Virus record (IMG/VR): IMGVR_UViG_3300036829_000065
Span: 1-22,947 of that record
Source of the DNA: a virus
Length of the DNA: 22,947 nucleotides
Strand: one strand, 5' to 3'
The position numbers and the translations under genes are program-made. Positions within the stretch are counted from its first letter, which is position 1. Each line of letters opens with the position of its first letter. The notes under the pieces were generated by a model that was given only the letters and a program-made list of their open reading frames with translations, had not been told where the DNA came from and ran no database searches. Below, one piece after another: positions 1,040 through 14,990 of this stretch.

Positions 1040-1309
1040 GTGAGTGCGGATGCGCTCAACACGCGAGCGGTCAAATGGGCGCGTCTACAAGCCACCGGCG
1101 GGCCCGCAGAGAAAGCCGTGCTGCTCATTTTGTCCGCTGCGGCGGACCCATCGGGATCGTGCAACCTTTCGACTCGCACCATCGCGCAGCGCTCCGATAC
1201 CAATCAGGCGACAGCGCGCCGAGCTCTCGATCGGCTCCGGAATCGAGGCCTTGTCTCATGGTCTGCGGGTGTCGGTCGAGCACCCAGCACCTATCAGTTG
1301 CCGCTGTGA
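1040..1309 (+). CDS. winged-helix DNA-binding protein, HTH_36-like (89 aa)
   Basis: A DNA-binding domain spans almost the whole protein. A helix around residues 10-32 (V-K-W-A-R-L ... A-V-L-L-I-L) is followed by S-T-R-T-I-A-Q-R-S, then a recognition helix N-Q-A-T-A-R-R-A-L-D-R-L-R-N-R-G-L-V (about 55-72) and a wing ending at the C-terminus. This is the arrangement of the HTH_36 family, which in phages often forms the N-terminal domain of lambda O-like replication initiators, or stands alone as a regulator. The GTG at 1040 is the start because the in-frame codon just upstream is a stop. The TGA at 1307-1309 is followed in the same frame by an open stretch to 1570, so the gene may be a shortened form of a longer ancestor. 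Paired palindromes start 10 bases after the stop and are candidate binding sites. Confidence 0.75.
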   Translation: MSADALNTRAVKWARLQATGGPAEKAVLLILSAAADPSGSCNLSTRTIAQRSDTNQATARRALDRLRNRGLVSWSAGVGRAPSTYQLPL

Positions 1310-1642
1310 CGCCCCGCCGTAGTGAGTCACCTAGCGACTCACTACACCCGCCGTAGTGAGTCGCTAGGTGACTCACTACGAACAAAGAAGATGATCTTTG
1401 ACCAGCGGAAACGCGAGGGTTTCGATCGCCATGCCCAAACAATGCCTTTGTTCGTCCTGGAAGGACGAAGGTTTCCACCACCTCAGCTTCGCTTCGGTGA
1501 TGGTTGGGCTGCCGCCCCACCTTCGCTTCGCTCAGGCGGGTTGCCCTCGATGATCAACTCAACGACCTAGATGGCTCGGTTCTGACTGGAGTAGTGAACG
1601 TAACCACTAGACCGCGCGCGCGAATTGAAAAGGAACCGCACA
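1310..1642. other. structured non-coding region: paired palindromes and serial hairpins
   Basis: I see no convincing gene in these 333 bases. The region starts with two 27-bp sites (1319-1345 and 1353-1379). It continues with short inverted repeats at 1383-1400 (CAAAGA/TCTTTG), 1408-1423 (GAAAC/GTTTC) and 1451-1469 (TTCGTCC/GGACGAA). A 10-bp direct repeat CTTCGCTTCG occurs at 1487-1496 and 1521-1530. The segment ends with an alternating CG run (near 1612-1622) and the ribosome binding site AAGGAA of the next gene. An in-frame open stretch (1322-1570) continues the winged-helix frame after its stop, but beyond residue 35 or so it looks unlike protein. Candidate roles are replication origin, operator region or structured RNA. 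Confidence 0.6.
1319..1379. repeat. two 27-bp near-palindromic sites, exact reverse complements of each other
   Basis: Site 1 (1319-1345) and site 2 (1353-1379) both have the outer arms GTAGTGAGTC and GACTCACTAC, which are perfect inverted repeats. Their 7-base centres are ACCTAGC and GCTAGGT, which are reverse complements. The full sites are therefore exact reverse complements separated by 7 bases (ACCCGCC), and CCCGCCGTAGTGAGTC also recurs as a direct repeat with a 34-base period. Such sites suit a dimeric DNA-binding protein, and the winged-helix gene ends 10 bases upstream. As RNA, the whole would fold into one long hairpin with 27-bp arms. Confidence 0.85.
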
Positions 1643-13094: not shown

Positions 13095-14990
13095 ATGAAC
13101 ACGTCAATAGGAACGTCCAGCACTAGCCGAATATCGTTGGACTCCGACGACACCGTTGGTCTATGGATTATTGCAGGCGTTGCAGCGACTGCGCCCATTG
13201 CCGAGTACCGGCCGGAAGATTATGGTGCAAGTGGTGACGGAGTCGGAGACGACACTGATGCGTTCGCAGCGATAGCAACGGCGATCAACCTAGCGGGTCA
13301 GCCAGCACTGGTTCAGCTCGTGCCTGGTGCCGTGTATCGGGTAGGACGGCAGACGTTCCCGGGCATAGCGAACGGCACCGGGTCTTACTTGCCTGTAGCT
13401 ATCTTCAAAATAGTTAACTCGCCTGCTTTGACCATCATGGGTGACGGCGCTACCCTCAAGGTCAACGATGGCTTGAAGGTCGGCACATTCGACCCTGTAA
13501 CAGGCGCGGTGTACGGCACGGTCGATGTCGCCATACCGTCGTCCGGCAATGGTAAGTATGTGGCCGCGCTGGGTAACGTTATCGAAGGCTATGGCATAGA
13601 TCGAGTTGCGATCAGAGACCTCAACATCGACGGCAATGACTCAGCACTTGTTAAGGGCGGCGGGATCGGTGTCGCAGGTACCACAGATTACTCAGTAGCA
13701 GGTACAGGTATTTTTTTACAGAAGGTAAAGAATGCGCTCATCGACAACGTTCACGGGCATCATTTGGTATTGGACGGCCTGTCCTTTTCTGATAAGTCAA
13801 CGACAATAAATGCAGACGGCGATTCCATAGTGGTTCGAAGTAGCACGTTCGAGTACGTGGGCCGTAATGCGTTCTGGCCGGGGAGCTGTAGCAACCTGCA
13901 CGTGACCGGCAGCAAGTTCAATCACGCCGGGAGAGGCGCGTTCAGGACCGCGCCTAGTGTTGGCATCGATTTCGAAGCATACGCTCCGAACGTGTCACGT
14001 CGAGCGCTGATCGAGTCGAGCGAGCTCGTGGACAACGCATCCCGCGGGTACTCTACGGCTGCGGGTTGGGGACAAATAGTGTTCAAGGTGTGCACGTTCC
14101 GTGCAAGCGGCACCCGTGGCGAGTTCGCTACTCCTACTGGTCCGTGGGTCAGCCATGAGGATTGCACGATTTATGGTGTCATCAATACGCTGGGGTCGGA
14201 TGCAAATGATCCGGACAGTACACTCAAGCCGCTCAATGGCACCGCATTTCGACGGTGCCTGATCGAGGACGCTGACTTCGTTCAGCCGGTCGTGTTCCCA
14301 GACGCCTTCGGTGTTCCCACCATGCAGGCCGAATCGAAACAAACCTACGGCGCCGTGACGGGCACAGTGGCGATTACAACGGCAGCGAGTTTGACATCGA
14401 ACAGGTGGAAGTGCCAGGTTCTCTACAACGGGGCTGTTGTCGAGACATACGACTCGCTGAACACCGTCGCCGGGGCGCTGGCGGTTCTCAATGCATCCAA
14501 CTATGCGGTGTTCACGGACCTGGGCTCATCGTCGCCTAGCCCGGCGTCGCAGCCTGCACCGGCCACTGCTATCACCTTACCGGTGAGAATCTTGGACCGG
14601 AGCAACGGCGGCCTGGTAGCCAAAGCGTTCGACAATGCCGTATTCGAGGATTGCACGTTCATTCCGCACGCTGTGACTGCCTTCAATATGTCTACGAACA
14701 GTTCTCTTGTGTCACCAATGGTGATCCGGCGCTGCACAGTAGTTCCGTACAATCCGGCAGTGGCCGACAAAGCGAACCAATCACTCATTAAACAATCCAT
14801 ACTTGACGGCTTGCGTTTTGTGGAGCCCCCCGGTCTGACGCCACCCGCTAATGGCTGGTACATAGGCAAGGACGCCACGGTGATGTACACTCCCAACGGG
14901 GTGACCGTCGGTCCATCAATTCATTGGGGTGCGTGGAACGGGCCGACCGGCACAATAGCTCGTAAGGACCCGCTAGCATGGCTGCTGTAG
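13095..14990 (+). CDS. right-handed beta-helix tailspike/depolymerase-like protein (631 aa)
   Basis: The N-terminal part has the tell-tale pectate-lyase-type start: P-E-D-Y-G-A-S-G-D-G-V-G-D-D-T-D-A-F (40-57), then a strand with L-V-P-G-A-V-Y-R-V (75-83). Residues about 105-370 show repeated short strand and Asn/Asp turn units (V-A-I-R-D-L-N-I-D-G-N, A-L-I-D-N-V-H-G-H, S-I-V-V-R-S-S-T-F-E, L-H-V-T-G-S-K-F) typical of parallel beta-helix rungs. Such spikes bind and often cleave surface polysaccharide. The C-terminal third is less repetitive and may trimerise or bind. Catalytic residues cannot be named. Codon use is visibly less GC-rich than the capsid gene, suggesting separate origin. No strong ribosome binding site precedes the ATG. 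Confidence 0.8.
   Translation: MNTSIGTSSTSRISLDSDDTVGLWIIAGVAATAPIAEYRPEDYGASGDGVGDDTDAFAAIATAINLAGQPALVQLVPGAVYRVGRQTFPGIANGTGSYLPVAIFKIVNSPALTIMGDGATLKVNDGLKVGTFDPVTGAVYGTVDVAIPSSGNGKYVAALGNVIEGYGIDRVAIRDLNIDGNDSALVKGGGIGVAGTTDYSVAGTGIFLQKVKNALIDNVHGHHLVLDGLSFSDKSTTINADGDSIVVRSSTFEYVGRNAFWPGSCSNLHVTGSKFNHAGRGAFRTAPSVGIDFEAYAPNVSRRALIESSELVDNASRGYSTAAGWGQIVFKVCTFRASGTRGEFATPTGPWVSHEDCTIYGVINTLGSDANDPDSTLKPLNGTAFRRCLIEDADFVQPVVFPDAFGVPTMQAESKQTYGAVTGTVAITTAASLTSNRWKCQVLYNGAVVETYDSLNTVAGALAVLNASNYAVFTDLGSSSPSPASQPAPATAITLPVRILDRSNGGLVAKAFDNAVFEDCTFIPHAVTAFNMSTNSSLVSPMVIRRCTVVPYNPAVADKANQSLIKQSILDGLRFVEPPGLTPPANGWYIGKDATVMYTPNGVTVGPSIHWGAWNGPTGTIARKDPLAWLL

Follow-up and report, generated by a model that had tools for sequence, protein, structure and literature searches.

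The replication origin of phage lambda lies inside the O gene, where inverted iterons of ~19 bp bind O dimers and are followed by a 40-bp A+T-rich region (PMC5043065). An O-type initiator with adjacent iterons is a known kind of origin, and iteron plasmids such as RK2, P1, and pSC101 also use DnaA boxes at their origins (PMC4980987, PMC5043065). For mycobacteriophages, RepA and RNA-based prophage origins have been described, and the authors of that study suggest an origin within or beside repA (Wetzel et al., 2020; PMC7157519). Streptomyces telomeres form hairpins that are closed by sheared G:A pairs and bound by Tap (PMC4513846). We analyzed a 22,947-base stretch of viral DNA, called the window below, and propose from sequence comparison that positions 1040–1545 quite probably constitute a compact phage replication-origin module. 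In the mechanism envisaged, an O-type initiator reduced to its DNA-binding domain, an 89-residue winged-helix protein, would bind two palindromes at 1318–1380, probably as dimers. Together with host proteins, this binding would mark and help to open an origin in the non-coding DNA behind, and conserved hairpins at 1475–1545, exposed as single strands, would assist the loading of host helicase or primase. Host DnaA boxes at fixed positions would also participate in related phages of this layout. Several lines of comparison argue for this reading.

First, the 89-residue protein is, judged by its family matches, the equivalent of the N-domain of O-like phage replication initiators. Its gene (1040–1309, + strand) has a GTG start, is complete, and ends in a stop at 1307–1309. 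The protein matches Pfam HTH_36 (E 3e-8), in PHROG it is closest to replication-initiation and O-like families (E ~1e-6, over the first ~70–90 positions only), and it keeps the conserved residues of the family. An AlphaFold model, built on an alignment that excluded two rows from annotated phage records, is a winged helix of one domain (pLDDT 86.9), and the second winged-helix domain found in plasmid Rep proteins is absent from the 89 residues. The frame ends right after the HTH, and the protein lacks any known helicase-recruiting domain; no remnant of a C-terminal domain was detected behind the stop with PHROG, even at E 1. The window record (G000), a 23-kb fragment in which other replication genes may be out of view, gave no C-domain match elsewhere. 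A C-domain supplied in trans was also considered, and the only two matches were very weak (12.8–14 bits) and judged to be chance.

A fold search with the model returned only generic winged helices, including many transcription regulators (CRP, MarR, PerR). This resemblance, and the close spacing of the two palindromes, which is typical of operators, would suit a small transcription regulator whose operator controls the downstream zinc-finger and RuvC genes. We consider this alternative unlikely, because the best family matches are replication initiators rather than regulators, the equivalent repeats lie inside the coding sequence of the homologues themselves, and the fixed DnaA boxes and hairpin of the relatives would be left unexplained. 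Moreover, a scan of the window placed the sites only behind the HTH gene, with neither a site nor a half-site upstream of 1040, which argues against autoregulation, and a promoter scan of 700–2000, which does not cover all actinobacterial promoters, found no sigma-70-like promoter.

The original prediction had noted two exactly reverse-complementary sites ten bases behind the HTH stop. These sites were confirmed as 28-nt arms with 27-bp cores, and the gap was measured as 8–9 bases. Site 1 (1318–1345, + strand; core 1319–1345) and site 2 (1353–1380, − strand; core 1353–1379), the proposed initiator-binding sites, are 100% complementary across a 7-nt spacer. Each core is itself a near-palindrome (GTAGTGAGTC-N7-GACTCACTAC), and the two cores are also 85% direct repeats of each other. 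When up to three mismatches were allowed, just these two sites were found in 22,947 bases (shuffles gave 0), and all four AGTGAGTC half-sites of the window fall within them. The exact 27-bp site was absent from the other viral contigs searched, a set from which records near the window may be left out. As a single strand, the inverted repeat folds into a 28-bp hairpin, with a folding z-score of −12.2 against dinucleotide shuffles, and could on that ground be taken for a structure that terminates transcription or serves RNA processing and has nothing to do with the HTH protein. We give this idea almost no credence: no T-run follows the repeat on either strand, the terminator scan does not report it, and the relatives carry repeats of different sequence and arrangement, L004 having three direct repeats and L103 two short palindromes that stand apart, so that the constant feature is co-inheritance of a repeat with the HTH rather than the shape of a terminator. 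Rfam gave no match at the gathering score, and only sub-threshold microRNA-precursor models matched the palindrome. As a separate observation, the window palindrome (1319–1379) and a repeat in contig L003 (2685–2746) share GTGAGTCAC; the initiator domains of the two are not recognisably related, unlike their backbones (RecT ... zinc finger – RuvC).

Directly behind the sites, a short AT-richer stretch (AACAAAGAAGATGATCTTTGA, 1381–1402) was read from the sequence. The AT fraction is 0.54 for 1350–1399 compared to 0.30–0.44 in most neighboring 50-base steps, and the stretch might conceivably be an unwinding region. The HTH reading frame does stay open after the stop, as had been noted, from 1310 to a stop at 1568–1570, and does not look coding. 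The Ser/Thr linker peptide formerly read from it is the palindromes translated, and the frame shows no PHROG match even at E 1. Its GC content by codon position is flat (0.62/0.54/0.56, compared to 0.70/0.54/0.88 for the RuvC gene), a weak test, as the HTH gene is flat too (0.66/0.62/0.65).

Second, most full-length relatives carry repeats within the gene just behind the HTH. A search with the single HTH sequence failed, and relatives were recovered from viral contigs by a family profile, which yielded 66, ~58 of them full-length with closed frames of 166–426 residues. In 49 of the ~58, direct or inverted repeats were significantly enriched in the 330 bases behind the HTH, which lie inside the gene (p ≤ 0.03 against 60 block shuffles). 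In-gene repeats also followed the HTH in 11/11 homologues from an annotated phage collection that covers the O-like and L003 types (Gingerbug gp44, DelaGarza gp45, Margaery gp51, Altadena gp41, Tonitrus gp63, Darolandstone gp39, Samba gp71, Wocket gp69, Hans gp54, RcHotPocket gp66, and MT835840), with the repeat-rich stretch beginning at residues 73–153. A shortened initiator might be expected to have homologues that run through the repeats into a longer protein, and the full-length ones do so. DNA BLAST of 900–1800 against phages gave no match. In L118 and L122, Gingerbug and DelaGarza, the full-length HTH initiator contains in-gene AGGTCAGnnTGACCT repeats and is directly followed by a gene annotated as a helicase loader; in these Microbacterium phages the two genes form a pair like O and P of lambda.

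Third, stand-alone forms with non-coding repeats recur. They were found in the window, Microbacterium phage ValentiniPuff (gp90, 87 residues), L010 (110–114), L034 (94), L045 (96), L004 (110), L003 (121), and L103 and L117 (~110 each). L102 (~106–144 residues, depending on the start chosen), which has DnaA boxes and the hairpin, is counted beside them. The repeats of L004 begin in the last codons of the HTH gene, and those of the other stand-alone forms follow in non-coding DNA. L039, from a low-GC contig, is short too (89 residues). The HTH of L003 belongs to a different initiator family (PHROG_2447 N-domain, E 4e-41). Recurrence in at least eight other phages indicates that the HTH stop is not a chance mutation, and the lack of a detectable C-terminal-domain remnant behind it points to a recurring architecture. 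The idea of a stripped initiator that keeps its origin repeats as non-coding DNA is well supported by comparison with relatives, and what had to be given up is the notion of a single gene cut short by a stop. Fourth, an in-gene repeat recurs as a non-coding one: the 14-bp sequence ACGGCGTGAGTCAC, which lies within the initiator gene of Gordonia phage Hans, is found in L003 as non-coding DNA that follows the homologous stand-alone domain, and 200 codon-shuffled control sequences reached 13 at most.

The window also contains hairpins, and those conserved at 1475–1545 had not been part of the original prediction. Hairpin A (1451–1469; TTCGTCC-TGGAA-GGACGAA) was read from the window sequence. Hairpin B (1475–1503; CCACCACC-(TCAGCTTCGCTTC)-GGTGATGG) has 7/8 pairs and a conserved 13-nt loop, and its equivalent in L004 lies at the same place (CTACC-(TCCGCTTCGCTCC)-GGTAG). 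Hairpin C (1509–1545; CTGCCGC-CCCACC-(TTCGCTTCGCTCA)-GGCGGG-TTGCC), the conserved element, has 5/6 pairs, and its bottom strand carries a GCGAAGC mini-hairpin. The arrangement CTGCCGC-stem-TNNGCTTCGCTNN-stem-TTGCC behind the repeats is common to the window, ValentiniPuff, L004, and L010. The loop reads GCT(G/C)CGC in L034, L102, L103, and L117, and L003 has the variant CTGCCGC-CCCCGC-TGAC-GCGGGG-TTGCC. Across 17 instances, the stem ranges from 2 to 8 bp, and its pairs vary: pair 2 is C-G in 14 instances and G-C in 3, with both sides changed, pair 3 is C-G or A-T (5 and 2, with one mismatch), and pair 4 is C-G or T-A (4 and 1). Within the loop core GCTNCGC, the center is freest (T in 12, G in 3, C in 2), which reads as GC-GNA-GC on the bottom strand (GAA, GCA, GGA); the search pattern fixed the other loop-core letters, and their constancy is no evidence. 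DNA of the form d(GCGNAGC) folds into unusually stable mini-hairpins closed by a sheared G-A pair. The GNA pattern favors a role of the bottom strand as single-stranded DNA. An RNA element was considered and not favored, because variation of the loop center as GNA on the bottom strand is a signature of DNA mini-hairpins.

Fifth, the hairpin occurs with stand-alone forms and in 0 of the ~58 full-length forms; one regular-expression match, in L058, was rejected because it has neither the loop nor a paired stem. In the set collected by HTH, it lies 184–206 nt after the HTH domain in the window, ValentiniPuff, L010, and L034. The association between stand-alone form and hairpin gave a Fisher p of 2.5e-5 for non-independent contigs and is partly ascertained, because the window, ValentiniPuff, and L010 seeded the profile; without these seeds, the hairpin accompanies 1/3 stand-alone relatives of the sample (Fisher 0.05, contigs again not independent). 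In the set collected by hairpin, six of 13 distinct paired-stem matches follow a stand-alone HTH (L004, L010, L034, L102, L103, L117), compared to none of the unpaired-stem matches, which lie mostly in long ORFs and serve as an internal chance control. For the other seven paired-stem matches, Metamorphoo among them, the region directly upstream contains no HTH gene, and the hairpin is therefore not exclusive to the stand-alone HTH protein. L045 and L039 have a stand-alone HTH and no hairpin.

Paired-stem hairpins without an adjacent HTH gene were seen in L011, L012/L015 (Metamorphoo), L008, L013/L014, L023/L024, L006/L009, and L110; that of Metamorphoo (37865–37895) sits between replication/recombination genes. 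The exact CTGCCGC...TTGCC hairpin is also present in bacterial genome contigs L016, L017, L019, L020, and L021, apparently outside obvious phage genes, and the bacterial contigs with the hairpin are MAGs of Clostridiales, Rubrobacter, Acidimicrobiaceae, Microthrixaceae, and Actinomycetes. BLAST matches of the element to plasmids (H98, H101, H108, H109, H117, H118, and H110–H123) were also recorded. In several linear plasmids of Streptomyces, the hairpin core has matches a few hundred bases or less from the ends, a short likeness that may be convergent, and large plasmids of Klebsiella and Serratia match it exactly over 21 nt at positions without an annotated gene.

Sixth, DnaA boxes keep their spacing to the hairpin in phages with different HTH genes. 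The boxes are of the TGTGGATAA type in L010, L034, L102, L103, and L117, and ValentiniPuff has DnaA-like boxes of the TGTGGAAA type; in all six phages they occupy two positions relative to the hairpin, −164 to −168 and −151 to −156. A further box lies ~10–25 bases before the hairpin in five of the six (all but L034) and reads TTTCCACAG in ValentiniPuff. Double boxes are common, with at least 86 such places, and 0 hairpins near them among those listed, which indicates that the hairpin is not their usual companion. Seventh, the HTH gene and palindromes have been swapped together. The sibling phages L010, L034, L103, and L117 have the DNA upstream and the gene downstream in common; between L010/L034 and L103/L117 the HTH gene and its palindromes (GTGACA...TGTCAC vs. 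TAGCTCACAGTGAGCTA) are exchanged as a block, and the DnaA boxes and hairpin stay. Such a swap is what co-evolution of a protein with its site before a constant origin core would give. No DnaA box was found in the window or beside the hairpin in L003 and L004. The missing boxes of the window, the missing C-domain remnant, and one mismatch each in hairpins B and C could mean that the origin has decayed, with an initiator gene that lost its C-domain and went out of use and with repeats and hairpin as leftovers. We regard decay as very unlikely, because each palindrome is the perfect reverse complement of the other, the HTH retains its conserved residues, and the layout recurs with conserved spacing in unrelated initiator families, which would not be expected from decay.

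Finally, recombination and resolvase genes flank the proposed origin. Upstream is the C-terminal part of a RecT-like annealing protein (3–317, + strand; PHROG_4171, E 4e-9), cut by the record end. The HTH gene is followed by a gene for a small zinc-finger protein (1646–1822, + strand, with the ORF listed from 1625; Pfam PF24623, E 1e-7), which has counterparts in the corresponding position of L003 and L004, and then by a gene for a RuvC-like resolvase (1819–2424, + strand; PHROG_159, E 3e-28), which was the synteny anchor that retrieved L003 and L004. Far downstream of these genes, beyond the structural genes, a 631-residue ORF (13095–14990) reads like a repeat-rich tail-fiber or spike protein. 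Searches of the relatives' records, a set that does not include the window, found the Gingerbug helicase loader only in Gingerbug. A simple exchange of loader for hairpin is not apparent, as the loader is absent from the stand-alone phages but also from full-length ones, among them Margaery, Darolandstone, and Hans. A DnaB-type helicase (DnaB_C) was absent from both the stand-alone and full-length records searched, again a set without the window, which suggests that dependence on the host helicase is general among these phages.

Some observations count against the origin module. The window has no DnaA box, only two sites, and a mismatch in hairpin C; L045 and L039 have no hairpin, and about half of the hairpin loci have no adjacent HTH gene; the stand-alone protein lacks a known helicase-recruiting domain, and the record is a 23-kb fragment. 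A further and more tentative proposal, to which we give somewhat less than even chances, is that the half of an O-type initiator that recruits helicase gave way to a conserved single-stranded DNA hairpin, a GNA-type mini-hairpin of the bottom strand, which most members combine with host DnaA boxes, so that the phage protein would only address and open the site and host replication proteins would load on the hairpin. This proposal is compatible with the existence of the two forms, and a protein with no need for a helicase-binding part would leave DNA-binding domains and their own palindromes freely exchangeable before a constant loading site. If true, the origin reading would assign a concrete and compact replication start to a class of phages and provide a natural series in which the protein half of an initiator is replaced by DNA. 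It would also predict a small replicating cassette and, in actinobacteria, a new kind of single-stranded site for loading or priming. The exchange of domain and palindromes before constant boxes and hairpin would amount to a natural domain-swap experiment on the minimum that an initiator requires.

The open-licence literature searched holds no description of the combination seen here, an initiator reduced to one domain together with palindromes in non-coding DNA, a conserved hairpin, and, in most members, DnaA boxes at fixed spacing, and each of the closest systems resembles the module in part. Streptomyces telomere hairpins (PMC4513846) likewise have GNA-type loops in GC-rich hairpins that act as single-stranded DNA, but they are terminal overhangs of linear replicons rather than internal origins. 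The mycobacteriophage origins of the nearest paper found (PMC7157519) are also actinophage origins but belong to parABS extrachromosomal prophage systems, and the portion of that report consulted describes neither a stand-alone HTH domain nor this hairpin. Iteron plasmid origins share a replicon-specific winged-helix initiator, nearby sites, and, with the window's relatives, DnaA boxes; by contrast, Rep has two winged-helix domains and direct-repeat iterons, compared to one domain and palindromes here. Lambda O and its origin share the O-like winged-helix N-domain, inverted repeats directly behind it, and a position in the early replication/recombination cluster. Unlike lambda, the window has no C-terminal domain, non-coding repeats, and a conserved hairpin after them; the genes next door encode the zinc-finger and RuvC-like proteins rather than an evident P-like helicase loader, and the relatives have DnaA boxes. 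Full-length actinophage initiators (Microbacterium Gingerbug gp44 and DelaGarza gp45, of 245 residues with the next gene annotated as a helicase loader; Margaery gp51; Rhodococcus Tonitrus gp63; Arthrobacter Altadena gp41) have a homologous HTH with repeats right behind it but differ from the window in that the repeats are in-gene, a C-domain is present, and the stretches examined contain neither hairpin nor DnaA boxes. ValentiniPuff gp90 and the 349 bases behind it differ in having DnaA-like boxes, repeats of another sequence, and one hairpin rather than two or three. ValentiniPuff has a stand-alone HTH that is 39–40% identical to that of the window, TGTGGAAA boxes, short repeats, and the same hairpin, and no other cultured phage with the complete layout was found.
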